63,555 nt of DNA from Synergistaceae bacterium (GTDB lineage: Bacteria; Synergistota; Synergistia; Synergistales; Synergistaceae), in NCBI GenBank assembly GCA_021372895.1, contig JAJFTP010000012.1, positions 1 through 63,555 on the forward strand, given 5' to 3'. The notes under the pieces were generated by a model that worked only from the letters and a program-made list of their open reading frames with translations, did not search any database and had not been told where the DNA came from. Below, in pieces: positions 3,346 through 32,545 of the stretch; the first letter of the stretch is position 1; every line of letters starts with the position of its first letter. The position numbers and the translations under genes are program-made.

Positions 3346-4416
3346 CTACAACTCAGGTCCCTGCTCCTGTTCCAGTTTTTCCTTTTCTGCATTGAGAGTT
3401 TCCAGGATCATTTTCAATGAGGCGGTTTTATTTTCGATGTTTTTCTCCTGTTCCTCGCCTGCTTCCAGAATCATCTTGATTACTTCCGGATTATTGCCGC
3501 CGAGCCTGGGGTCCTCTGCTCTATGCCACTGTTTTTCAGTATGTATCCAGTGATTTCTGAAAGGAAGGTTCTGTCTTATAGCGTCTATTACTGGAAGAAG
3601 GAACAGCTTCGTGCCTGATACCGCCTCCGAAAAAGAACGGTTATCCAACACCTTTTTGCTGCGAAGAAATCCTTTCCAACGCTGCTGCCTCTCATAATTA
3701 TCCGTAAAGCTTTCTTCAAATGCCGCAATTTCTTCAAAATGGGTATAACGGTTTTCAAATGTTTCTATTATTGCCTGCTTGAGCATTTCTCCGTTAAAAT
3801 CTTCACGCTCTGAAAGAGTGCAGAGATCATAAAAGTCTTTATAACGGCTGTTTGTCAGTCCAAGTGAAACAATCGCCTCAATTTTTTCCGCTACGATTGA
3901 ATAAGTGGGGTATGCGAAAATATGGGGAGCGTCATTGTCGAGAATGGTGGGATAATCCATTATAATCCTGTCGGGATAGATAATATCACCGAATCCGATA
4001 TCTATGCTGACAGGAATCCTTGTTCTGTCGAGATAGGCTGCTGTAGTAACCTTTACACCGTGATATTTCTTGAATTCCGTAATATTGTCGACATCCAGCG
4101 CATCAATATCAAAACGGATAGGGTCATCCGTCTCGATGGAAAGAATCTGCGCAAATACACTTTTCAGTTCATCCTTGTCATTGGTGATATTCCCGCCAAG
4201 GAGATCGATATCGGTAGTGGCGCGGGTAAAGTCATCCTCATATAAGCCATAGAGAAGAATGCCGCCTTTTAAAGTGAAATTATCCATATACTTGGATTTT
4301 GAAATACGAAAGAGTACACGCTCTAAAATATAAGCGGTCAGCACATCTTGAAATATCCGTCCGCTTTTTATTGCGTAATTTTTTAATCTGTCCTTTATCG
4401 AAGCGGCGCCGCTCAT
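3346..4416 (-). CDS. abiEii: AbiEii-type nucleotidyltransferase toxin (locus 1)
   Basis: A 356-residue member of the AbiEii/AbiGii toxin family. Visible motifs are the nucleotide-binding TLKGGILLYGL (around 48-58), the acidic pair in TTDIDLLGG (around 67-75), VAEKIEAIV (around 173-181) and RYKDFYDL (around 190-197). AbiEii proteins are DNA polymerase beta-like nucleotidyltransferases that block growth when not countered by AbiEi, and characterised pairs abort phage infection. The ATG overlaps the antitoxin stop by 4 bases (ATGA) and has a GGAGG site. A coiled-coil-like charged tail fills the last 45 residues and is absent from the second toxin in this window. Phage defence here is inferred from the family. 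Confidence 0.92.
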   Translation of the reverse strand: MSGAASIKDRLKNYAIKSGRIFQDVLTAYILERVLFRISKSKYMDNFTLKGGILLYGLYEDDFTRATTDIDLLGGNITNDKDELKSVFAQILSIETDDPIRFDIDALDVDNITEFKKYHGVKVTTAAYLDRTRIPVSIDIGFGDIIYPDRIIMDYPTILDNDAPHIFAYPTYSIVAEKIEAIVSLGLTNSRYKDFYDLCTLSEREDFNGEMLKQAIIETFENRYTHFEEIAAFEESFTDNYERQQRWKGFLRSKKVLDNRSFSEAVSGTKLFLLPVIDAIRQNLPFRNHWIHTEKQWHRAEDPRLGGNNPEVIKMILEAGEEQEKNIENKTASLKMILETLNAEKEKLEQEQGPEL

Positions 4417-4994
4417 ATCAGCACCTCCACAAATTGTTTCATAGTCGTTTTAAGGCGGAGCATCCCGGCATACCGCGTCAGTCGGTTAAGGTCTCGGTTC
4501 CGCTTATTCAGATATTTTTTAATGACCTCGACAGCCGGTTCAAATCCCAGCTTGTTGCGATAGAAGATAACGTCGCATACTGTTTTTTCCATATCGTAAA
4601 TATAAAAGGGATTGCCGTCCGCATTGACTTTTTCTACTCCGACTTTATATCGTTGATCCGAAAAAAGATAGAATCGCATCAGCGGCCAGTCAGGCGACCG
4701 CGGCACCCTTGATCTCCGGGGGAGGGCAACGTCAATTTGCGCGGGTCTTTCTGTTGTAAGCTCATAATATGCTGCCGCACTCATAAGGCAGATTATGCCT
4801 TTTTCATCAGAGTAGGCGGGAACGGCATAGAAATCGTTGATTTCGCCGTTATATTCCATGTTTTCATAGTAGCTGCGGTTGACCCTGCCAAGTTTCCCTG
4901 CCGAAACAAGCTGATTTATCTTATAGAGGGAATACCCGTCCTCTTTCAGGTTCTTAAGAGGTATAAATTGCCGCTTTTGGATTTCTGCGTTCAT
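4413..4994 (-). CDS. abiEi: AbiEi-type antitoxin and autorepressor (locus 1)
   Basis: A 193-residue AbiEi-family protein: an N-terminal winged-helix part (KDGYSLYKINQLVSAGKLGR-type) followed by the conserved C-terminal antitoxin domain (DMEKTVCDVIFYRNKLG, ending in LRLKTTMKQFVEVLI). The frame extends to an ATG at 5012, but AAGGAGGT lies just before the ATG at 4994, which I take as the start. In the family it both represses its own promoter and neutralises AbiEii; a perfect inverted repeat lies upstream. It ends in a 4-base overlap with the toxin gene, as is usual for these pairs. Confidence 0.9.
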   Translation of the reverse strand: MNAEIQKRQFIPLKNLKEDGYSLYKINQLVSAGKLGRVNRSYYENMEYNGEINDFYAVPAYSDEKGIICLMSAAAYYELTTERPAQIDVALPRRSRVPRSPDWPLMRFYLFSDQRYKVGVEKVNADGNPFYIYDMEKTVCDVIFYRNKLGFEPAVEVIKKYLNKRNRDLNRLTRYAGMLRLKTTMKQFVEVLI

Positions 4995-5015
4995 GGGAAC
5001 ACCTCCTTGCATGAT

Positions 5016-5056
5016 ATTTTAACCAATGTTTTCAGTTTTGTAAATATGAAAACATT
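5016..5056 (-). promoter_or_regulatory. Promoter and inverted-repeat operator of AbiE locus 1
   Basis: A perfect 10-base inverted repeat, AATGTTTTCA (5025-5034) and TGAAAACATT (5047-5056), is separated by 12 bases. On the minus strand a -35 box TTTACA (5039-5044) lies in its spacer and a -10 box TAAAAT (5016-5021) follows after 17 bases, so a bound repressor would cover the promoter. AbiEi antitoxins are known to bind paired inverted repeats and repress their operon; use of this site is inferred. Confidence 0.65.
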
Positions 5057-5170
5057 AAATCAAAACAGGACATAAGGAAGCGGGCTCGCGAACGACGGAA
5101 CGGTGGCTCATGAAGTGTGGAATGGCGGGCTCATTTCAACGTAATATGCATCCTCCTCAAATAATGTGAG

Positions 5171-5646
5171 TTATTTAATTTCCTCATATTCAATAATGTT
5201 AAACCAATTACTCTCTATAAGTTTTTTAGCCCCGCTATCAGAGTAAAACCAGTTACCCTTTATAACACCCCATTCTTCAATGTCAGTCCTTTGACGATAC
5301 TTCCTGCTCTGTTTCCCGACCATTTGGCGTATTGAGCCTTGGCCCGGCGCTCTGTCTCTGTTTTTTCCTGTGTGCCCCAGTTTTCTAAATACGATTCCGT
5401 GATCTCGCTTGCGTCTACAGAATAGAAAGAAGTTTTGTTGAAGTAGCTAGAAGTGTGGTGCCATGATGACTCATACAAGGCCAGATCCCTCAGTGCTTCA
5501 ACAGGCATCTTCTCAATGTCGGAGAGCGGGACGTTTAACTCGGTCTCTTCATCTTTCAACTGTCGTTTGATTTCTATCGCCTCTCTGCATGCATATTGTT
5601 TCACCACTCCATTCCACTTATGCATATGTATGTTGAAATGAGCCAT
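5171..5646 (-). pseudogene. Unrecognised gene, frameshifted, 5' end abutting an IS21 remnant
   Basis: The main frame gives a hydrophilic product containing VPLSDIEKMPVEALRDLALY and YESSWHHTSSYFNKTSFYSV, ending near AQYAKWSGN. About 60 codons later in sequence order it hits a stop at 5260, but a neighbouring frame continues smoothly as KYRQRTDIEEWGVIKGNWFY and ends SNWFNIIEYEEIK at a TAA (5171-5173). One single-base change near 5310-5320 would rejoin them. The 5' end merges with istB sequence, so the true start is lost or is the ATG at 5646 or 5625. I do not recognise the family. Either a pseudogene or a sequencing error. Confidence 0.5.
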
Positions 5647-6068
5647 CTGAATGAGAAAACGACAGTTCTTCGAGCAGATCGGGGATTCTGGCGTACTTTG
5701 CGGAATATCGTCCCCGGCAGGCTGCTGTTCCGAGCGCACATGCCAGGTATGTTTTGCCCACTCCGGGTGTATCCCATGATTATGATGTTCTGTCCGTTTG
5801 CGATGTATCCGCAGCAGGCAAGCTCGTTTATGAGGCGTCTGTCAAGGTTTCTCTCAGGAAGTAGGAAGGCAGTCAATGTCTGTAACTGAGGCGCTTTTGT
5901 AACAGAATGACGGATCGCGGGTAAGATCCGTTATCCTTCTGCTTTTTCTCCTGTGCCACTCTCTGTCCACCGGCATGCTCATCTGGTCTTCGAATTGAGT
6001 TCCATGAAGCTCTTGTCCTCTATGCGTTCACGTATGTCTTTTGAGAAGACCATATTTTCATGTCTCAT
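5634..6068 (-). pseudogene. istB: IS21-type istB helper ATPase remnant, three reading frames
   Basis: Read across frames, this is an IstB: EDKSFMEL, then FEDQMSMPVDREWHRRKSRR, then ERNLDRRLINELACCGYIAN, then IIIMGYT, then GVGKTYLACALGTAACR (Walker A) and KYARIPDLLEELSFSHSDGSF. One frameshift lies near 6000 (before FEDQM), one near 5880 and one at the Walker A, where an extra C splits GYT from GVGKT. The Walker B region and C-terminus are missing, and no istA is present on the upstream side. It is the relic of an IS21-family element, dead and truncated at both ends. Confidence 0.8.
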
Positions 6069-6098
6069 TTCTTGGGAGCGCTATAATTCAGAAAGATA

Positions 6099-6329
6099 AT
6101 GAAACACATCAGCGAAGACAGCTTCGATTTTACTATGTATCCTAACCTGCTGTTGCTTCTGTGGGACAGGAACCGCAAGGTCCTGGAAGCGGCCGACGCA
6201 TTTGACGTGCTTGACGAACGACTGGCCAAATATATCAGGCCGGAATGGCTTACAGACGAGGAGAAAAAAGTCATACAAGTCCTTGCCGACCGGTTCTCAG
6301 CCGGCATTATCAATGGCTGGGATTCCTGA
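6099..6329 (+). CDS. Small hypothetical protein
   Basis: A 76-residue soluble product, MKHISEDSFDFTMYPNLLLL at the start and ending VLADRFSAGIINGWDS. A weak AGAAAG site precedes the ATG. The composition (acidic, helical, two tryptophans) looks like a real protein rather than noise, but I recognise no domain and it has no clear partner. It lies between the istB relic and the second AbiE locus, on the same strand as the latter, about 125 bases upstream of its start and separated from it by that locus's own promoter. It may be a fragment of a longer gene. Confidence 0.4.
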   Translation: MKHISEDSFDFTMYPNLLLLLWDRNRKVLEAADAFDVLDERLAKYIRPEWLTDEEKKVIQVLADRFSAGIINGWDS

Positions 6330-6388
6330 TCAGTGATTCGATACGCATGACAGAGACGGAATTAATTGCAAAAATAGATTATCGCTTG

Positions 6389-6435
6389 TTGAACATTTAC
6401 ACTACATTATGCTATAGTGTGTAGCGTAAATGTTC
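6389..6435 (+). promoter_or_regulatory. Promoter and 16-base inverted-repeat operator of AbiE locus 2
   Basis: GAACATTTACACTACA (6391-6406) and TGTAGCGTAAATGTTC (6420-6435) form an inverted repeat matching at 15 of 16 positions, with a 13-base spacer. A promoter TTGAAC (6389-6394), 18 bases, TATAGT (6413-6418) runs through it, with the -10 box in the spacer. It is the expected binding site for AbiEi autorepression. The half-sites differ from those at locus 1, so the two antitoxins probably recognise different DNA. Confidence 0.75.
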
Positions 6436-6453
6436 ATACAGGAGGTGACGGTT

Positions 6454-7047
6454 ATGAACGACTGCGAAACGATCCTGAAAATGCTTAAAGAAGGCAAGGG
6501 TTTTATTACCGCTTCGGAGGTAACTGCAGCGGGAATTCAGCGGCGCGCGCTGGGTGAGCTTGTGACGACAAATCGTGTTTATCGCGTGGCGAGAGGAATC
6601 TACGCGCTGCCTGAAACGTGGGAGGACGAAATGTATTTCCTGCAATATCGTTTTTCGAAAGGCATTTTTTCCAATGAAACGGCTTTGTATCTGCACGGAC
6701 TTTCCGATCGCACACCGATGAGCTACACGCTGACATTCCCCCACGGCTACAACGCCGTGGGACTTAAAAGCCTTAACGCGAATTCAAAATTCGTAATACC
6801 CGAAATTTATGATTTGGGTATTACAGAAAAACCCTCCCCCTGTGGGAATCCTCTTCGCGTCTATAACGTGGAGAGAACACTATGCGACATCGTTAAAGGT
6901 AAAAACGCCTATGATATTCAGCTTGTGACTCAGGCAATGAAAGCCTATGCGGTTTCCAGGGAAAAGGATGTGGCAAAACTCGTGGAATACGCGGAACGGT
7001 TACGCGTAAAACCCAAGATACTCAGATTTATGGAGGTTTTGCTGTGA
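6454..7047 (+). CDS. abiEi: AbiEi-type antitoxin and autorepressor (locus 2)
   Basis: A 197-residue AbiEi-family protein. The N-terminal winged helix is visible as GFITASEVTAAGIQRRALGE followed by VYRVARGIYALP, and the antitoxin domain carries NVERTLCDIVKGKNAYD and ends LRVKPKILRFMEVLL. AGGAGGTGA at 6440-6448 fixes the ATG at 6454 rather than the in-frame codon at 6430. The last codons overlap the toxin's GTG start (GTGA). Sequence similarity to the antitoxin of locus 1 is confined to family motifs, so this is not a recent duplication. Its strong upstream palindrome points to autoregulation. Confidence 0.92.
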   Translation: MNDCETILKMLKEGKGFITASEVTAAGIQRRALGELVTTNRVYRVARGIYALPETWEDEMYFLQYRFSKGIFSNETALYLHGLSDRTPMSYTLTFPHGYNAVGLKSLNANSKFVIPEIYDLGITEKPSPCGNPLRVYNVERTLCDIVKGKNAYDIQLVTQAMKAYAVSREKDVAKLVEYAERLRVKPKILRFMEVLL

Positions 7048-7919
7048 TTACAAAAAATCCGATGCAATTGAAAACGTTTATTAAGAAAAAAGCGGAAGAA
7101 AATAATATTTCAAGTCAGCTTGTTATGCAGAACTATATGATGGAACGGCTTCTGGAACGTATCTCCCTCTCTCCCTACAGGAAGAACTTTATTCTCAAAG
7201 GCGGATTTCTAATAGCCGCCATCGTGGGCCTGAATACGCGTACGACAATGGACTTGGATACCACAATAAAGGGGCTGGACTTAACACACGAGTCTATCGA
7301 CAGGATATTCAAGGAAATCTGCGCTATCAAGGTAGAAGACAATATTACCTTCAATGTACTGCGGACGACTGAAATTCGTGAGGGAGACGATTATCCCGGA
7401 CTGCGTGTAGCGCTGGAAGCAAACTACCACCCCCTTGCAGTGCCATTAACCGTGGATGTGACAACAGGCGATAAAATTACTCCCCGCGAAGTGAAACGTT
7501 CTTTGCGGCTCCTTTTTGACGACCGCAGTATTTCGGTCATGACGTATAACCTGGAAACGGTACTTGCGGAGAAGATTGAAACTGTATTGTACCGCAATAT
7601 AGCGAACACCAGACCGAGGGATTTTTATGACATTTACATTCTTACTGCTCTCTACGGCCAACAGCTGGATTTAACAGTCTTAAAACAGGCATTGCTTGAA
7701 ACTGCCCGAAAAAGAGGCAGCCTGCAGATTTTACCCGAGTATAGGCAAATAATTCAAGATATACAGGCAAGTCCAAGGATGCGGGACTTTTGGGAGCAAT
7801 ACCGAGGGAGATTCAATTACGTAAAAAATATTTCATTTGATGATGCCTGTAAATCAGTTCTGATGATTATGGAAAACACGTACGGGGTCCCGCATATTAA
7901 CGACTCGCCAGAAGTTTGA
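7044..7919 (+). CDS. abiEii: AbiEii-type nucleotidyltransferase toxin (locus 2)
   Basis: A 291-residue AbiEii/AbiGii toxin starting at GTG with an upstream GGAGG. Motifs: NFILKGGFLIAAIVGL (around 47-62), the acidic pair in TTMDLDTTIKG (around 66-76), VLAEKIETVLYR (around 174-185) and RPRDFYDIYIL (around 190-200). It is shorter than the toxin of locus 1 because it lacks the charged C-terminal tail. Together with the preceding gene it forms a complete type IV toxin-antitoxin pair, by family knowledge a bacteriostatic nucleotidyltransferase with a phage-abortive role. No terminator is obvious just downstream. Confidence 0.92.
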   Translation: MITKNPMQLKTFIKKKAEENNISSQLVMQNYMMERLLERISLSPYRKNFILKGGFLIAAIVGLNTRTTMDLDTTIKGLDLTHESIDRIFKEICAIKVEDNITFNVLRTTEIREGDDYPGLRVALEANYHPLAVPLTVDVTTGDKITPREVKRSLRLLFDDRSISVMTYNLETVLAEKIETVLYRNIANTRPRDFYDIYILTALYGQQLDLTVLKQALLETARKRGSLQILPEYRQIIQDIQASPRMRDFWEQYRGRFNYVKNISFDDACKSVLMIMENTYGVPHINDSPEV

Positions 7920-8274
7920 CTATAGTTGTTACTCTGCGTCTTCTCAGAATTGCTACGGCACGTATGACAAAGCGGGGGGCACCTGGTCCCCTACTACTCA
8001 ATACACTGTTCGTCATCTGCTGTAACCCACTTGGACATCTTCATCCAGTAAATCCGTTAACCCGAGGTTCCTGAGTACAGCATTTACGGTCTTTTTCGTG
8101 TAGCCGCATGGGTCCCCCTTTCTGTCATTGCCTTTTATGCGCTTCTGAAGTCCATGCGAACTGCATGCTTGATCCTTGGTCTGCCCGGGCCTTTTCGTCG
8201 GGAGTGTCATTTATCCGGTGATAATGTGAGTTTTCGTTTGGTTCATTTTTTGCCCGCTTTGGAAAAAATACATG
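7920..8274. other. Spacer between AbiE locus 2 and tRNA-Val
   Basis: About 350 bases without a gene I can support. A minus-strand frame (8013-8210, 65 codons) contains GYTKKTVNAVLRNLGLTDLL and might be a decayed fragment, but it has no ribosome site and no recognisable family. No copy of the tRNA-Val 3' end is present here, so I see no sign that this accessory stretch integrated at that tRNA. Confidence 0.4.
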
Positions 8275-8299
8275 AAAAAGGACGAGCCGAAGCCCGTCC
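8275..8299 (-). terminator. Rho-independent terminator of tRNA-Val
   Basis: On the minus strand an 8-pair stem (GGACGGGC / GCTCGTCC, one G-T pair) closes a TTCG tetraloop and is followed by TTTTT. It lies about 15 bases past the tRNA 3' end. Confidence 0.85.
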
Positions 8300-8313
8300 G
8301 TGGTTTACGAATA

Positions 8314-8388
8314 TGGTGGGCGATAGAAGAATTGAACTTCTGACCTCTTCCGTGTCAAGGAAGCGTTCTACCTCTGAACTAATCGCCC
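8314..8388 (-). tRNA. tRNA-Val (anticodon GAC), CCA encoded
   Basis: A complete cloverleaf on the minus strand: acceptor GGGCGAT paired with ATCGCCC, D-arm with GTTCAGAGGTAGAAC, anticodon stem CTTCC/GGAAG with loop TTGACAC, T-loop TTCAATT, discriminator A and an encoded CCA. Anticodon GAC reads GUC/GUU valine codons. It has its own consensus promoter just after guaB and a strong terminator, so it is an independent transcription unit, though read-through from guaB is possible. Confidence 0.95.
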
Positions 8389-8399
8389 AACGAGCAAAG

Positions 8400-8428
8400 A
8401 TTCTACTATCTATCATTCCTCATGTCAA
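8400..8428 (-). promoter_or_regulatory. Promoter of tRNA-Val
   Basis: TTGACA (8423-8428), a 17-base spacer and TAGAAT (8400-8405) on the minus strand, ending 11 bases before the mature tRNA 5' end. A near-perfect sigma-70 promoter located between the guaB stop and the tRNA. Confidence 0.85.
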
Positions 8429-8448
8429 TACTGCTCAGATAGGTTTCG

Positions 8449-9972
<1,524 letters not shown>

Positions 9973-11151
9973 TTATGCATTAAGCGCGATTTTGCCCTTT
10001 CTCCTCGAAAGAGTAGCCACTCCATGGCAGATCATGCACTCAGAGCGTCCAACGCTGCCGCATCCCTCTCCTGATTTGATCTTTATGTTCAAATTGCGCT
10101 CACCGTCACTCTCGCTGAGGTAAGGCGCAAGGCTTGCGATAAACATCGGAACCATGTCGCCCAACCTTGGTGTCTGAGCTTCTAGAGTTATGTCGACCCA
10201 TTCGATCTTCCATCCCGAAGCTCTTATTCTTTGTACAACAGAGTCGAGCATTCCTGTGCTTGCAGCATCCTTCCATTTTACATCAGATGCGGGGAATAGG
10301 GTCCCAATATCGGGCTCACCCGCTGCTCCCAAAATGGCATCCATCACTGTGTGCGTAATAATGTCAGCGTCAGAATGGCCAAGCAGTCCTATAACGGAGT
10401 CGCTGATCTCCATGCCGGCAAGTATCAGCCTGCGTCCGGGGATAAGTTTATGGACGTCAAAACCATGTCCGGTGCGGCGCTCTATGTTTCCTTCAGCAAG
10501 AGCATAGGCTATTGCCAGGTCAAAAGAGGTCGTAATTTTGAAGTTTGACTCAATTCCGTCTACGACGCCAAGTTCACGTCCGGCAGCTAACCATGCCTCA
10601 GCCTCGTCCTTTCCCTTAGACCCGTACTGTTCTATCGCGGAGATGAGCGATTTTTTTTCAAATGCCTGCGGGGTCTGTGTGCGAAAATATTCTTTCCTGT
10701 CAACACATGTGATTTTACCGCCGGAGATTTTTTTCAATGAATCTGAGGAGGCAAGCAACGGTACGCCAGAGCCGCATTCTTCAGTTTTCTTTATGAGCCT
10801 GCGGCATAGTCCGGCGGTTATAAAAGGGCGGGCCGCATCGTGGACCAGCACGTGTGACCCGCTGCATATCTTTAATCCATTCATTACCGAGTCTGATCGT
10901 GTATCTCCTCCGGCTGTGATCTTCAGAGGGATCCTGAGATCATCTTCAGACTCAACATTTTTAAAATTTGTGGGCGGAAGCACAAGGACAAGCTCTTTTA
11001 TTTCCCCTGCAGCCCAAAGTTTTTCTGCTGTTTCAGCGGACCATCTCCATAAGGGGATGCCGTTAAGTTCCCTGAACTGTTTTGGTATGCCCCCGATGCG
11101 GCTTCCTGATCCGCCGGCAACTATAATGAACGACCATGTGTTTTTCTGCAT
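9973..11151 (-). CDS. ispDF: Bifunctional IspD/IspF (MEP pathway)
   Basis: Two consecutive-pathway enzymes in one 392-residue chain. The N-terminal part (1 to about 225) is 2-C-methyl-D-erythritol 4-phosphate cytidylyltransferase, with the nucleotide loop IIVAGGSGSRIGGIPKQF and VLVHDAARPFI. The C-terminal part (about 227-392) is 2-C-methyl-D-erythritol 2,4-cyclodiphosphate synthase, with metal ligands D232 and H234 (GFDVHKL), GHSDADIITHTVMDAILGA and KSGEGCGSVGRSE. IspE, which acts between them, is not in this window. The gene follows yacL by 4 bases. Such fusions are known in several phyla. Confidence 0.95.
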   Translation of the reverse strand: MQKNTWSFIIVAGGSGSRIGGIPKQFRELNGIPLWRWSAETAEKLWAAGEIKELVLVLPPTNFKNVESEDDLRIPLKITAGGDTRSDSVMNGLKICSGSHVLVHDAARPFITAGLCRRLIKKTEECGSGVPLLASSDSLKKISGGKITCVDRKEYFRTQTPQAFEKKSLISAIEQYGSKGKDEAEAWLAAGRELGVVDGIESNFKITTSFDLAIAYALAEGNIERRTGHGFDVHKLIPGRRLILAGMEISDSVIGLLGHSDADIITHTVMDAILGAAGEPDIGTLFPASDVKWKDAASTGMLDSVVQRIRASGWKIEWVDITLEAQTPRLGDMVPMFIASLAPYLSESDGERNLNIKIKSGEGCGSVGRSECMICHGVATLSRRKGKIALNA

Positions 11152-11155
11152 GATC

Positions 11156-12316
11156 CTAAGCGCTGATGCGGCCGAATACCATTCTTCCCGCGGAAGTCTG
11201 GAGCATTGATGTCACTGTTACTTTTACCCTCTCGCCTATGTGTTTATAGCCATCCTCGACTACCAGCATTGTCCCGTCGTCGAGATAGCCTATGCCCTGA
11301 TGGTTTTCTTTGCCGATCCTGATAATGTCGATTTCGACATCTTCTCCGGGCAGAAGCATAGGTTTAAGCGAGTTTGCAAGGTCGTTTACGTTAAGTACCG
11401 AGACACCCTCGATCTGCGCGACTTGGTTCAGGTTATAGTCGGTAGTTATGACCTTGCCTCCGAGTCGCCTTGCCAGAACGACAAGCGCCTCATCGACCTT
11501 GTCTCTTTCCAGATCCTTAAGCGTAATTTCTGGGATTTCGATGTTGAGAGCCCCGATTTTTTGAAGCTCTGTAACTACAGACAGGCCCCGCCTCCCACGC
11601 GTGCGGCGCAGAGAATCTGTAGAGTCGGCGACTCCCTGCAGTTCCGCAAGAATAAATCTCGGGAGCACTATAGTGCCCTCCAGGAACCCCGTCTGTGCAA
11701 CATCCAGTATCCTTCCGTCAATGATCGAACTTGTGTCAAGTATTTTGGGAACTGAAAAATAATATTCTGCAGATGTGCTGACCTCTTCTTCTCTTACATT
11801 CTCACCGTTGCCTATTTTCTTTTTGCGCTTTGGAAGTTTCAGCCTGATATCACCAATATTTGTGATAACGTTCCATATGTCGTCCCTGCGCTTTGCAAAA
11901 ACACGCAGCCCAAGATAAGCAAGGGCTATGTTCAGCAGGACTGCTATATAGACCCCTACTCCGCCCGGAAGCCTTGACATAGGCATAGCGATAAGGTTTG
12001 CCAGAAGCAGCCCCATAACAAGCCCGACCAGACTGACTATCAGATCAGGCACGCTTGTGTTCTGTAATCTAGATTCTATAAATTGACTGAACTTAGAGAG
12101 ACCTAACCAGAACAAAGGTGCAAGAATAAAGCCGAGGCATGCTGACAGCAGTATGATAAAAATAGTCGTACCGATAGGGTGAAGCAGTGTGATCGACGGC
12201 CACCAGTTATAATCAAGGACTAGATTCGATATCTGATAACCGGCAGCCCCGCAGATAAAAACCATAACTGCGCGTACCAATCTTCTCATGACGATGGAAA
12301 GTCCTGATTCAGACAT
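11156..12316 (-). CDS. yacL: PIN/TRAM-domain membrane protein, YacL type
   Basis: A 386-residue protein with about four N-terminal membrane helices (about 12-32, 42-70, 90-112, 120-140), a PIN nuclease-fold domain starting at ILDTSSIIDGRILDVAQTG (around 195-213) with acidic residues also in LVVLARRLGGKVITTDYNLN, and a C-terminal TRAM domain (about 320-386, with GYLDDGTMLVVEDG). This is the architecture of Bacillus YacL, whose proposed role is RNA binding or cleavage at the membrane. AGAAAGGAG precedes the ATG. It is coupled to ispDF, as yacL often is in Gram-positive genomes. Confidence 0.92.
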   Translation of the reverse strand: MSESGLSIVMRRLVRAVMVFICGAAGYQISNLVLDYNWWPSITLLHPIGTTIFIILLSACLGFILAPLFWLGLSKFSQFIESRLQNTSVPDLIVSLVGLVMGLLLANLIAMPMSRLPGGVGVYIAVLLNIALAYLGLRVFAKRRDDIWNVITNIGDIRLKLPKRKKKIGNGENVREEEVSTSAEYYFSVPKILDTSSIIDGRILDVAQTGFLEGTIVLPRFILAELQGVADSTDSLRRTRGRRGLSVVTELQKIGALNIEIPEITLKDLERDKVDEALVVLARRLGGKVITTDYNLNQVAQIEGVSVLNVNDLANSLKPMLLPGEDVEIDIIRIGKENHQGIGYLDDGTMLVVEDGYKHIGERVKVTVTSMLQTSAGRMVFGRISA

Positions 12317-12384
12317 TACACATTCTCCTTTCTTAATTTTAATTTCTATTGCTTTTTACAAACAGTGAAAAATCTCTCAATAAA

Positions 12385-12981
12385 TTACATTTCTTTTCTG
12401 GATTCAAGAGCCATATGGAGCGTTACCCGATCGGCAAAACCTATACTGCCCCCGACCGGAAGGCCGTAAGAGAGCCGCGTGATTTTCACGGGCAGTCCGC
12501 ATACAGCCTCCTGTATGGCAAATGCAGTAAGATCTCCCTCTATTCTCGGAGCTGTGGCAAGGATCAGCTCTTCTATGCCAAGCTCAGAGATCCTAGCTCT
12601 CAGTCGTTCTATGCTTGCCTTCGGTATCTCCTGATCGTCAAGAGGAGATACCCTCCCGCCGAGCACATGATAAAGCCCGTTAAATATCCCTGCCTGTTCT
12701 AAAGCCACACAATCTTCATCGCTTTCCACAACACATATGATTTTTCTGTTTCTCATCAAATCACGGCATATAGAGCATGGTTCCATGTCCGTTATGTTGC
12801 CGCACTCGGAGCAATGGTGGACCTCCTCTGTCAGCTGTGCTACGGCGCATGAAAAATCCTTCACCCAAGAGGGATCCTGTCTTAAAAGGAAAAATACCAT
12901 GCGTCTCGCTGTCTTTTCCCCGACGCCTGGCAGTTTGCTCCATAATTTTATAAGTTTCTGTACCGAACTTGGAAGTGTCAC
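12385..12981 (-). CDS. recR: Recombination mediator RecR
   Basis: Works with RecO/RecF to load RecA at gaps. The 198 residues show an N-terminal helix-hairpin-helix (LWSKLPGVGEKTARRMVFF), a four-cysteine zinc finger (HCSECGNITDMEPCSICRD, about 56-74), and a Toprim domain starting at IICVVESDEDCVALE with YHVLGGRVSPLD. The start is GTG at 12981 with a poor ribosome site; no better in-frame start exists. It lies 16 bases after ybaB, the usual partner. dnaX, the common third member, is not adjacent. Confidence 0.96.
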   Translation of the reverse strand: MTLPSSVQKLIKLWSKLPGVGEKTARRMVFFLLRQDPSWVKDFSCAVAQLTEEVHHCSECGNITDMEPCSICRDLMRNRKIICVVESDEDCVALEQAGIFNGLYHVLGGRVSPLDDQEIPKASIERLRARISELGIEELILATAPRIEGDLTAFAIQEAVCGLPVKITRLSYGLPVGGSIGFADRVTLHMALESRKEM

Positions 12982-28754: not shown

Positions 28755-29472
28755 ATGGGATTCCCTCCTTGAGGACAGCAAAAGTCAGATCCTGGATCAT
28801 CGGCACGGAGAGCCTTTTCTGCTCCATCAGCCTTATTAGTGATTCCATTTCCGCCGCTTTTACAAAATCCCCTGTCTCTGTTAAATGTTTGATCCAGCTT
28901 TCAATTTCAAGATATAAAATCTCGGCGCCGGCCTTTTTATTGCTGTTGTCCATCCATGCCGCCCATTCTTCCGGGGTCTCCGGATGAGGGCGCGACCTTA
29001 CAAGTTCTTCCGGCAGTTCTATTGATATTGACCATACGCGGCTCTTTATCGTGGGAATAAGCTTGTCCTCTTCAGATATATAAAGGACATATCCATGAAG
29101 CGGAGGCTCTTCTGTCAGCTTCAGGAGGCTGTTCGCCGCCTCAAGGGAAAGTTTGTCCGCAGACCATATCACTGCAAGCCGTCTTTCTGAAATCACAGGA
29201 TGGAGTCCAAGCTCGCCCTGCAGTGTCCGGCAGTCATCAATGGAAGGCTGTGTAAGATATCTGCCTGCGTGGACAAGATCCGGATGAGTTCCGTCTTTCC
29301 AGGCCGGACTGTCTCCAAGCAGAAGCTTACCGTAGCGCTCGACAAACAGCTCCTGCATCGCAGATGGGATTACAACTGCCAACGATTGCGGACTGCGTCC
29401 CATTTTGAATGCAGAGATTATCTCTTGCCAGCCTCTTGAATTTTCAAGAAGGGCGCCAGTGTCGTCAATCAC
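28726..29472 (-). CDS. holB: DNA polymerase III delta' subunit
   Basis: A 248-residue clamp-loader subunit of the delta' type. The conserved region is IWSADKLSLEAANSLLKLTE followed by EPPLHGYVLYISE and LIPTIKSRVWS, the sensor-like motif of delta'/DnaX proteins. It is short and lacks a zinc module and Walker A, as expected for delta'. It begins at GTG overlapping the tmk stop by 8 bases. Placement between tmk and the PSP1 gene supports the call. Confidence 0.85.
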   Translation of the reverse strand: MIDDTGALLENSRGWQEIISAFKMGRSPQSLAVVIPSAMQELFVERYGKLLLGDSPAWKDGTHPDLVHAGRYLTQPSIDDCRTLQGELGLHPVISERRLAVIWSADKLSLEAANSLLKLTEEPPLHGYVLYISEEDKLIPTIKSRVWSISIELPEELVRSRPHPETPEEWAAWMDNSNKKAGAEILYLEIESWIKHLTETGDFVKAAEMESLIRLMEQKRLSVPMIQDLTFAVLKEGIPYEQIFGSVW

Positions 29473-30082
29473 AAAAAAACCCTCTCATCTCCAGCGCCTT
29501 TAAAAGGCTGCCGAAGACAACTTCCTCATCCCCGTATGAACAATCCAGTTGTATCCATCTTTCAGGCTCACTGCGGGCAAGGGCGAGATAGCCTTCCCTG
29601 ATTTTTGTCATAAACGGCATTCCTTCACTCTCAAATGTGTCCGGCATGCCGCGTCTCGCTGTTCTTTCAAGCGCCGTTTCAGCCGGAACATCAAAAAATA
29701 TGGTCACGTCCGGAACGGGGAAGGCAGAAAGGCGGGCAAGCTCCTGGAAGATCTCAAGCGGCAACCCCCTACCCCAGACCTGATATGCTATTGTTGAGTC
29801 CTGATATCGCTCACATACGACGTCAAGCCCCTTATCCAATGAAGGCTGTATGACGTTTGCAACATGTTCGGCGCGGTCAAGCATGAATAGATATGCCTCA
29901 CTCCAGGGGTGCTTCAGCCGTCCGCTTATGACGATATCCCGAAGCACCGCCACACCTTCCCACCCGCCGGGTTCACGTGTGAGAACGGCATGTCTATCTT
30001 GTTTTTTATTGAGCCAGTCTGTGAACATTCTTGCCTGTGTCGACTTGCCCGAACCATCAAGCCCCTCAAAGGTAATAAACAT
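29465..30082 (-). CDS. tmk: Thymidylate kinase
   Basis: Phosphorylates dTMP to dTDP. The 205 residues start MFITFEGLDGSGKSTQARMF with the P-loop at about 8-15, then LTREPGG (the DR-like nucleotide loop), VVCERYQDSTIAYQVWGRGL and DVPAETALERTARRG (lid). A complete enzyme at the head of the tmk-holB-psp1-ftsY run; the gap upstream holds the selC hairpin. Confidence 0.97.
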   Translation of the reverse strand: MFITFEGLDGSGKSTQARMFTDWLNKKQDRHAVLTREPGGWEGVAVLRDIVISGRLKHPWSEAYLFMLDRAEHVANVIQPSLDKGLDVVCERYQDSTIAYQVWGRGLPLEIFQELARLSAFPVPDVTIFFDVPAETALERTARRGMPDTFESEGMPFMTKIREGYLALARSEPERWIQLDCSYGDEEVVFGSLLKALEMRGFFCD

Positions 30083-30123
30083 GATACCACACCCCTACAA
30101 CGGATAATCATAACACAAAACAT

Positions 30124-30158
30124 CCCGCAGAAAGGAGATAAACACTCCTTTCTGCGGG
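30124..30158 (-). terminator. Strong hairpin next to the tRNA-Sec half copy
   Basis: CCCGCAGAAAGGAG (30124-30137) and CTCCTTTCTGCGGG (30145-30158) form a perfect 14-pair stem with a 7-base loop, followed on the minus strand by ATGTTTTG. It lies about 14 bases past the duplicated tRNA-Sec 3' end. I infer it is the original terminator of the tRNA-Sec gene, left behind at the tmk side. Confidence 0.75.
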
Positions 30159-30171
30159 ACATATTTTCAAT

Positions 30172-30240
30172 ATGGCGGAGGCATGTGCGAATCGAACACA
30201 CCGTGACCGGCGTCACGACCCCCGCCGGATTAAAATCCGG
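30172..30240 (-). repeat. Displaced 3' half of a tRNA-Sec gene (att-like direct repeat)
   Basis: This 69-base stretch aligns with the 3' part of the intact tRNA-Sec gene (31093-31163): 64 of 71 columns identical, five substitutions and two single-base gaps. It holds the anticodon stem, variable arm, T-arm, 3' acceptor strand and CCA, but no D-arm or 5' acceptor strand. The variable arm still folds as its own stem (CGTGAC/GTCACG), so it is not simply decaying. The anticodon loop is altered (TTTTAA instead of CTTCAAA). It cannot make a tRNA. It looks like the far attachment site of an element integrated in selC. Confidence 0.75.
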
Positions 30241-30388
30241 AAAAAGCGTAATGCAGGAATTAAGTAGTCGTCACTGAAAAACATGAATAACTCAGTCATA
30301 GACCGTCTTGAAAACATGATAAAATGGACCACGAATTAATATTGCTTTCCAAGAAAATATGTAGGATGGATATGTGGAGGGGAAATAT

Positions 30389-30949
30389 ATGGGCCGTTTT
30401 GCCGTTATCGACACTGAGACGACTTGGAGCGACGCCGTGATGTCGATCGGTACTGTCGTAGCCGATTCCGAAAACTTCAAGCCGATCGATAAGAAATACT
30501 ATATACTCACGCCGTTCAAAAACCACGGCGGTATGTATTCATACGCTCTCTATGCGGACGGGATAAAGCCAGACCTCGAATGTTCAAGGGAAAAGGCGAT
30601 GAACGAGTTGATTCGATTCCTCGCCTCTCATGATGCCACCACGATTTTTGCATACAACGCCGTCTTTGACCACAGGCACTTGCCGGAACTCCGCCATCTG
30701 AATTGGCACGACATAATGAAGCTGGCGGCGTACAGGCAGCACAATCCCAAAATTCCGAGTTGTGCCGAATGCTACGGTACGGGCAGATTGAAGCGCGGAT
30801 ATGGCGTTGAGAGTGTTTACAGGATGTTGAGCGGAGACTATGGATATTGCGAGATACATAACGCTCTGACCGACGCGATTGATGAGTTGGAGATAATGCG
30901 GCTTCTGAGTCTAGAAATCGACCGCTATACCTTGGCGAGAATCGGGTGA
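30389..30949 (+). CDS. DEDDh 3'-5' exonuclease-like protein
   Basis: A 186-residue DnaQ-fold protein. Exo I is FAVIDTETTWSDAVMSIG (Asp and Glu near residues 8 and 10), Exo II lies in FAYNAVFDHRHLPEL, and Exo III is HNALTDAIDELEIMRLL, where His and Asp give the DEDDh set, so it is probably active on DNA or RNA. A cysteine pair (CAECYGTG, around 130) may bind metal. GGAGGGG before the ATG at 30389 fixes the start. It is alone, on the opposite strand to everything around it, enclosed by the tRNA-Sec repeat copies, so it is probably cargo of an integrated element. Not a replicative proofreader by length and context. Confidence 0.75.
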   Translation: MGRFAVIDTETTWSDAVMSIGTVVADSENFKPIDKKYYILTPFKNHGGMYSYALYADGIKPDLECSREKAMNELIRFLASHDATTIFAYNAVFDHRHLPELRHLNWHDIMKLAAYRQHNPKIPSCAECYGTGRLKRGYGVESVYRMLSGDYGYCEIHNALTDAIDELEIMRLLSLEIDRYTLARIG

Positions 30950-31048
30950 GTCCGACAATACTTCCTGTTTTTTTACAATAACAAAGGTCTCTTGGATGGA
31001 AACGATGAAAATCGTGTATATTATGATATATAGCGGCAAAATTCCATT

Positions 31049-31084
31049 CAAAAAGGGCTTACAGGCTAAAACCCGTAAACCCTT
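31049..31084 (-). terminator. Terminator of tRNA-Sec
   Basis: On the minus strand AAGGGTTTACGGG pairs imperfectly with CCTGTAAGCCCTT around a short loop and runs into TTTT, about 10 bases after the tRNA 3' end. It differs entirely from the 14-pair hairpin next to the half copy. Confidence 0.6.
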
Positions 31085-31093
31085 GCTATTACA

Positions 31094-31190
31094 TGGCGGA
31101 GGCGTGTGCGAATCGAACACACCGGGACCGGCGTTACCGACCCCCGCCGGATTTGAAGTCCGGGCCCAGCACCAGCTGAAACTCGCCTCC
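31094..31190 (-). tRNA. selC: Selenocysteine tRNA (anticodon TCA)
   Basis: A 97-base tRNA with encoded CCA. The acceptor strands GGAGGCG and CGCCTCC pair, the anticodon arm is CCGGA-CTTCAAA-TCCGG giving UCA, the long variable arm contains GGTAACGCCGGTCC, and the T-loop is TTCGATT. Length and anticodon identify tRNA-Sec, so the organism decodes UGA as selenocysteine. SelA, SelB and SelD are not in the window; serS is. The 3' half is duplicated about 0.9 kb away. Confidence 0.95.
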
Positions 31191-31240: not shown

Positions 31241-32545
31241 TCAATATATCCTGTCTATTATGAGTTTTCTCTTATCTGCGTATCCCGCTACGTCCCAAGA
31301 TGCCTCAAAGTAAGGCTTAGCTGCCTCAAGCTGTTTGGATGTGTTGTAGTGTATTCTCATAACCCTGCCGCCGGCATCGATCCTGTCTCCTGTCTTGGCA
31401 AAAAGCTGCACTGAGACAGCCCGGTCAATTTCGTCTTCCTGTTTGAGGCGCCCTCCCCCGAGTGCCCGCAGCCCTTCGCCGACCGACAGCGCGGACAGTC
31501 TGGAGAGATATCCTGCCTTATCAGACATGATGTCGCAGAAATATTTTGCCCTAGGCAGTATGTTCTGTGGTTCATCGATAACCCTGAGGTCGCCGCCCTG
31601 GGATTTGACCATATCTGCAAATTTGTTGAGTGCGGTGCCGTCACCCAGTGCTTTGGCGCATAATACGGAGCCAGCATCTGGATCAGATGCGACGCCCGCC
31701 ATGCTGAGCATATAACCTCCCAGGGTGATGCAGAGCTCCCTGGTATCGGCAGGCCCGTTTCCGCCAAGCACCTGAATGGCCTCGTAAACCTCCGCGGCAT
31801 TACCGATCCACTCTCCCAGCGGCTGTTCCATGTCGGTTATTATTGCGATACATACCCTGCCCAGTTTTCTCGATATCCGCACCAGTTTTTCGGCAAGCGC
31901 CGCAGCCTCGTCATTGTTGCGCATAAACGCGCCGCTTCCCGACTTAACGTCAAAAAGAAATCCGTGTGCACCGCCTGCAAGTTTTTTGCTGAGGATGCTG
32001 GATGTTATCAACGGGATGGACGGTACTGTACCCGTTACGTCGCGAAGCTTGTAGAACCTGCCCTCGGCAGGGGCAAGCCAGGCAGAATGTCCTGATATGG
32101 CACAGCCGATATTTGCCACCTGCTCTGTGAGCCTGTCGCCGGAAAGATGGAGGTCCATCCCAGGTATTGATTCAAGCTTGTCTACTGTCCCTCCCGTATA
32201 GCCAAGCGCCGGTCCGCTGAGTTTTGATATTTTTGCGCCGCAGGCGGCCACAAGCGGGACCAGTATAAGCGTAGTTTTGTCCCCAACGCCGCCGGTGCTG
32301 TGTTTATCGACTATCCTGTCCGTTGCAGGGTATGTAATGGTATTTCCTGAATGTGCAAGGGCCTCTGTAAAATATACTGTCTCATGATCATCCAGTCCGT
32401 TCAGGTATGCCGCCATAAGCCACGCCGAAAGCTGATAGTCTGGTATGGATGCATCCATTACGCCACTGACAAGGTGCTGCAGCTCCGCACGCGTATGATG
32501 CCCTCCGTCGCGTTTCTTTTCAATAAATTCCACAACGTTGAACAT
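31241..32545 (-). CDS. pdp: Pyrimidine-nucleoside (thymidine) phosphorylase
   Basis: Phosphorolyses thymidine or uridine for salvage. The 434 residues show the glycosyltransferase family 3 signature SKLSGPALGYTGGTVDKLES (around 109-128), the phosphate loop KHSTGGVGDKTTL (around 81-93), and SSILSKKLAGGAHGFLFDVK. Whether it is specific for thymidine (deoA) or broad (pdp) cannot be read from the sequence. The stop of punA overlaps its ATG by one base, so the two nucleoside phosphorylases are coupled. Confidence 0.93.
   Translation of the reverse strand: MFNVVEFIEKKRDGGHHTRAELQHLVSGVMDASIPDYQLSAWLMAAYLNGLDDHETVYFTEALAHSGNTITYPATDRIVDKHSTGGVGDKTTLILVPLVAACGAKISKLSGPALGYTGGTVDKLESIPGMDLHLSGDRLTEQVANIGCAISGHSAWLAPAEGRFYKLRDVTGTVPSIPLITSSILSKKLAGGAHGFLFDVKSGSGAFMRNNDEAAALAEKLVRISRKLGRVCIAIITDMEQPLGEWIGNAAEVYEAIQVLGGNGPADTRELCITLGGYMLSMAGVASDPDAGSVLCAKALGDGTALNKFADMVKSQGGDLRVIDEPQNILPRAKYFCDIMSDKAGYLSRLSALSVGEGLRALGGGRLKQEDEIDRAVSVQLFAKTGDRIDAGGRVMRIHYNTSKQLEAAKPYFEASWDVAGYADKRKLIIDRIY

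Follow-up and report, generated by a model that had tools for sequence, protein, structure and literature searches.

A probable footprint of site-specific integration at the tRNA-Sec gene of a Synergistaceae bacterium

How did a second copy of only the 3′ half of tRNA-Sec come to lie 0.85 kb from the intact gene, with an exonuclease gene between the two? The window analysed here (63,555 nucleotides; contig JAJFTP010000012.1 of assembly GCA_021372895.1) contains an intact tRNA-Sec gene (selC) on the minus strand at 31094–31190, as called by both ARAGORN and Rfam (RF01852, 74.6 bits against a cut-off of 47). Local alignment within the window placed the second copy at 30172–30240, on the same strand and downstream of the intact tRNA 3′ end. 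The two copies aligned over 71 columns, with 64 identities, 5 mismatches and 2 gap columns (score 53). Elsewhere in the window, tRNA-Sec matched with a score of 12–13 at best, and the corresponding BLAST E-values were 2e-20 for the half copy and 2.3 for the next match. The half copy is therefore a match far above chance, and the intact gene and same-orientation half copy described in an earlier note were confirmed. The half copy begins in the 5′ arm of the anticodon stem (CCGGA..) and runs through GCCAT beyond the tRNA 3′ end, lacking the D arm and the 5′ acceptor strand, as the earlier note had also stated. Its anticodon loop is damaged (CTTCAAA to TTTTAA). As detailed below, we consider it very probable that the locus is the footprint of a tyrosine-recombinase element that integrated site-specifically into the host's single tRNA-Sec and has since decayed.

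The locus is flanked upstream by the nucleoside phosphorylase gene deoA/pdp (31241–32545, minus strand) and downstream by tmk (29465–30082, minus strand). Starting from the half copy, the DNA between the two tRNA copies comprises 26 bp (30241–30266), a truncated insertion sequence (IS) end of 93 bp (30267–30359, plus strand), the exonuclease gene (30389–30949, plus strand), about 100 bp of A+T-rich non-coding DNA (30950–31049; about 33% G+C compared to 49% for the window), and a terminator hairpin. This hairpin (31053–31084, –21.1 kcal/mol, z –4.2), followed by a T tract, lies within the 44 nt directly 3′ of the intact tRNA (TGTAATAGCAAGGGTTTACGGG..CCTGTAAGCCCTTTTT; 31050–31093, minus strand) and may be the new terminator of tRNA-Sec. 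Thus the 852-base insert does contain a DEDDh exonuclease, as first described, and in addition an IS end and a second terminator. Another hairpin, behind the half copy at 30120–30162 (minus strand), is in the same position relative to tmk as the terminator in empty sites, and is the original tRNA-Sec terminator. It is present as the earlier note had it, and folds with 18 pairs rather than 14 (–31.2 kcal/mol, z –8.3).

The arrangement expected of an empty site, with a single tRNA-Sec followed by the hairpin and tmk, had been predicted, and was found in 13 relatives from four genera (deoA, tRNA-Sec, terminator, tmk). The comparison drew on other genera, the closest being the nearest genus in the set, in which eight species (G007, G152–G158) had the empty site with tmk 70–74 nt beyond the tRNA; their tRNA-Sec was 98–99% identical to that of the window. 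Five genomes from three further genera (G002, G022, G004, G023, G005) had the same order and no second tRNA-Sec copy. Behind the half copy lies a flank (ATTGAAAATATG, hairpin, TTTTGTGTTATGATTA, start of tmk) that corresponds to the one behind the single tRNA of these relatives; the flank behind the window's intact tRNA-Sec showed no such correspondence. As it is the half copy, not the intact gene, that keeps the tmk-side flank, the half copy is the displaced host end (attR). It is also the decaying copy, since all the differences in the duplicated block are found in it alone and its anticodon loop is lost. The intact gene would then be attL, with a host 5′ part and a 3′ part, from about the anticodon loop, that was probably supplied by the element.

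Could the half copy instead stem from an old, local duplication of the tRNA 3′ half, with the IS and the exonuclease gene inserted later and independently? One base (C, alignment column 45) is common to both window copies and absent from the 17 other copies compared, and a local duplication would give this too. Such a duplication would also account for the absence of an integrase and for an IS remnant only 26 bp from the half copy, and in other relatives the interval between tRNA-Sec and tmk holds unrelated genes and IS copies without a tRNA copy. However, a local duplication should have repeated flanking DNA, and no match to the flanks, other than the tRNA sequence itself, was found in the DNA between the copies. 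The second terminator has no relation to the first, and is itself typical of integrated elements. Several separate events would have been required, ending in the exact configuration of an island with its break at the anticodon stem. We therefore regard this explanation as improbable. Simple tandem duplication is ruled out, because the insert and the second terminator are not copies of the flanks.

The interval between tmk and tRNA-Sec is a variable spot more generally, since three relatives hold unrelated genes there and no tRNA copy. By sequence, these genes encode an MBL-fold hydrolase, an ADP-ribosylglycohydrolase-like protein, a Bro-N protein, and IS66- and IS3-like transposases. The longer intervals of G014, G019 and G020 contained genes and IS copies, with no tRNA fragment and no integrase.

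If the intact tRNA-Sec marks the end of an integrated element, what is the origin of the DNA directly behind it? The 147 bp between the intact tRNA-Sec and the exonuclease gene were searched in 188 Synergistota genomes, and matched in 21 genomes besides their own. Nearly all matches were to the first 44 nt, with a few of the weakest covering other parts of the query. At 19 of 23 inspected places an intact tRNA (Ala, Val, Glu, Gly, Arg or Thr) had its 3′ end 1–6 nt from the motif. Three more followed a 3′ piece of a tRNA, which at two of them began at the anticodon stem and at the third was cut by a contig end; one place had no tRNA. Among 124 control tRNAs, from loci that had not been fetched by the motif, only the window's own tRNA-Sec was followed by the hairpin. 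An ordinary tRNA terminator of the phylum is thus ruled out as the identity of the motif, which followed none of the other tRNA-Sec loci. The 44-nt element end was also absent from the relatives' empty sites.

Beyond the hairpin, two direct repeats recurred at a spacing of exactly 11 bp: 65% of the other sites scored at least 7/8, compared to 0.7% of shuffles, and spacings of 9, 10, 12 or 13 bp gave little or no excess. These period-11 repeats may be tandem integrase arm sites. In the window's element end, where the non-coding DNA at 30950–31049 would hold such sites, the repeats were not recognisable. Genes beside some of the motif places encode a type IV secretion (T4SS) coupling protein, ArdC, a MobA/VirD2 relaxase and HTH_17 proteins. 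The attachment-site layout is recurrent in Synergistota: a tRNA 3′ end, a short spacer, a GGGTTTACG..CGTAAGCCC terminator, and two direct repeats spaced by 11 bp.

The same hairpin occurs in viral contigs. A pattern scan, using a pattern that the window's own element end does not match exactly, found it in three records, each with the order tyrosine integrase, tRNA 3′ half, hairpin. The integrase lay 0.1–0.7 kb upstream of the tRNA 3′ half, and two of the three integrases scored just below the Pfam cut-off. Sequence near-identical to the window's 44 nt thus occurs in viral attP, where the tRNA 3′ half also starts from the anticodon stem. One of the three contigs also carried, at the opposite end, an intact tRNA-Asn together with the hairpin. 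The layout was seen in the viral contigs L243–L246 and L267; no terminal overlap, which would be a sign of a circle, was found in contig L259. The proposal that the present 3′ half of the window's tRNA-Sec was supplied by an element is thus backed both by the flanks and by the recurrence of its hairpin after other tRNAs and in integrase-bearing viral attP.

Contig L267 (IMGVR_UViG_3300017548_000036, 10.9 kb), found with a variant of the pattern, resembles the window's locus in layout: one end has an intact tRNA-Pro and the hairpin, and the opposite end a tRNA-Pro half that starts at the anticodon stem. Unlike the window's remnant, the element on this contig is complete; its ORF list shows phage-type structural genes and a recombinase-like ORF. 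Its host-side terminator also resembles the hairpin motif, so the motif alone is no universal marker of element DNA. At the window locus it is nonetheless strong evidence, because the relatives' empty sites lack it.

The content of the insert is foreign, consisting of a Clostridia-type DEDDh exonuclease gene and a truncated IS end. The 3′–5′ exonuclease (186 residues; an alternative in-frame GTG start is possible at 30374) is intact and retains the DEDDh-type catalytic motifs. No relatives were found among the 187 other Synergistota genomes searched; the closest were in genomes and metagenome-assembled genomes of Bacillota, mostly Clostridia, with up to 83% identity. The gene is conserved at the protein level, with dN of about 0.11–0.14 and dS near or above 1.8 where computable. 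Its homologues sit in many unrelated contexts in which the gene itself is the sole shared part, and the family is a lone, widely transferred gene. It occurs across many Clostridia genomes, sometimes as two copies within a few kb. No solved structure matching the exonuclease by sequence was found. Searches of reference collections for a phage or plasmid origin gave no match, and the three IMG/VR contigs that contain exonuclease homologues have no PF00589 integrase. We also considered whether the exonuclease is itself a tRNA-linked mobile gene, and rejected this, as its homologues are seldom near tRNAs and have no common flanking DNA; flanking repeats around them were not above a random-position control. 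The exonuclease is likely to have been original cargo of the element.

The second foreign component, at 30267–30359, is the left-end remnant of a DUF772/DDE_Tnp_1 IS, identified from its match to contig C5 of the same genome and from the Pfam families of the transposase; the ends of the IS were defined with a copy in G154. The remnant is internally deleted and is cut 29 bp before the ATG of the exonuclease gene. Its longer piece is 93% identical to the full IS on contig C5, and this match within the same genome argues against a chimeric contig that has taken in foreign DNA. At the right end of the full IS, a 25-bp sequence (contig C5, 1476–1500) is found again at 14 further places in the genome, and could be either a repeat dispersed through it or a target preferred by the IS. 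The 26 bp that separate the IS end from the tRNA half may be the rest of the element's other arm.

No integrase is encoded in the insert, where the exonuclease gene is the only gene. Apart from XerD, a genome-wide PF00589 search found only a cluster of three recombinases on contig C91 (1237–3698), whose tandem tyrosine-recombinase genes are reminiscent of recombinase-in-trio elements. This raises the question of whether the locus is a remnant or a natural, integrase-less single-gene element (att–exonuclease–att) that is moved in trans by the integrase of another element. The earlier note had left both options open. A complete attL/attR configuration around a single intact foreign gene would fit a minimal element, as would the exonuclease homologues that stand alone in a variety of unrelated contexts. 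Elements that lack an integrase and retain both attL and attR (cis-mobilizable elements, CIMEs) are known (PMC5704250). However, the two att copies are no longer identical, no arm repeats can be recognised, the IS is truncated inside the insert, there is no second copy in the genome, and the exonuclease homologues elsewhere neither share flanks nor tend to lie near tRNAs. A natural minimal element, a 0.9-kb unit carried from one tRNA gene to another by the integrases of elements with the same hairpin-marked att sites, is therefore very unlikely. Shrunken remains of a larger element are the favoured reading.

How does the locus compare with catalogued islands? In Islander, known crossover subsites are defined as the anticodon or the T-stem/acceptor region; 2083 of 3919 islands have anticodon-centred sites, 3760 of 3919 have 3′ fragments, and lengths range from 2 to 200 kb, with a floor of 2 kb (PMC4383910). 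Like these islands, the locus has an intact tRNA with a same-strand 3′ fragment downstream, a fragment whose start, in the 5′ arm of the anticodon stem, coincides with a known crossover subsite, foreign DNA between the two, and an empty site with a single intact tRNA in relatives (13 genomes, four genera). Unlike them, it encodes no non-Xer tyrosine integrase, has 0.85 kb rather than 2–200 kb between the copies, and its att copies are not identical. They differ at 7 of 71 columns, which counts against integration. A CIME is a cis-mobilizable element, a decayed integrative and conjugative element (ICE) or integrative and mobilizable element (IME) that keeps attL and attR (PMC5704250). The locus has likewise kept attL and attR and lost the genes for integration and transfer, and element ends related to its own adjoin T4SS-coupling and relaxase genes elsewhere, yet these ends also occur in phages. 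The remnant fits the CIME class in its structure, and its ancestor could have been a phage, an ICE or an IME. Cis mobilisation is unlikely because the remnant is decayed. Given the lack of an integrase, the length of 0.85 kb, the divergent att copies and the lack of recognisable arm sites, the locus is probably an immobile, CIME-like remnant and not an active island.

Larger filled sites with an integrase had also been predicted. None were found in the same family, and the prediction held only loosely in the same order. In G058, an 8.5-kb island at tRNA-Sec (4367–12958) has a tyrosine integrase adjoining the intact gene, together with genes for a D5_N primase-helicase, an NrS-1 polymerase-like protein and HTH_17. 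An exact 139-bp repeat 8.5 kb upstream comprises 75 bp of upstream DNA and the first 64 nt of tRNA-Sec, so the fragment is of the 5′ part. Next to a run of N in this genome there is another copy, of 21 nt. Relatives of its integrase were not found in viral contigs. In G028, a tyrosine integrase lies about 400 bp downstream of tRNA-Sec, with no tRNA fragment in the 59.6 kb of contig beyond it. Apart from G058, a survey of 92 tRNA-Sec loci for fragments gave weak short matches only. These two cases show tRNA-Sec to be an integrase target in the order, and they are not the same element as the window's. In enterobacterial selC islands, tRNA-Sec is the attachment gene, as at this locus; there the crossover is in the 3′-terminal part of selC, compared to the anticodon stem here, and the islands span tens of kb and contain an integrase.

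The selC integration footprint proposed in the earlier note is thus supported by the empty sites, the flanks, the foreign insert and the recurring element end. We propose the following history. The attP of a tyrosine-recombinase element would have carried the 3′ half of tRNA-Sec, from the anticodon stem, together with its own terminator, and the element would have integrated into the host's single tRNA-Sec gene. A crossover at the anticodon loop would have fused the 5′ half of the host gene to the 3′ half and terminator brought by the element, such that the tRNA stayed functional, and would have pushed the host's own 3′ half and old terminator to the tmk side. Repair of the tRNA by an element-borne 3′ half, with displacement of the old half, is the standard scheme for integration into tRNA genes. 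The integrase and nearly all other genes would then have been lost, leaving the exonuclease gene alone and still intact. This loss was probably helped by the IS whose truncated end sits between the exonuclease gene and the displaced half; the position of its cut makes an IS-linked deletion on the attR side plausible.

The locus is a clean, well-controlled example of a type of event that is already known, and is ordinary in kind. It is a scar of the sort that island finders skip by design, being without an integrase and shorter than 2 kb. The conserved attachment-site layout may be useful beyond this locus: in Synergistota, it could serve as a guide for mapping integrated elements, and other scars, where genomes are fragmented.
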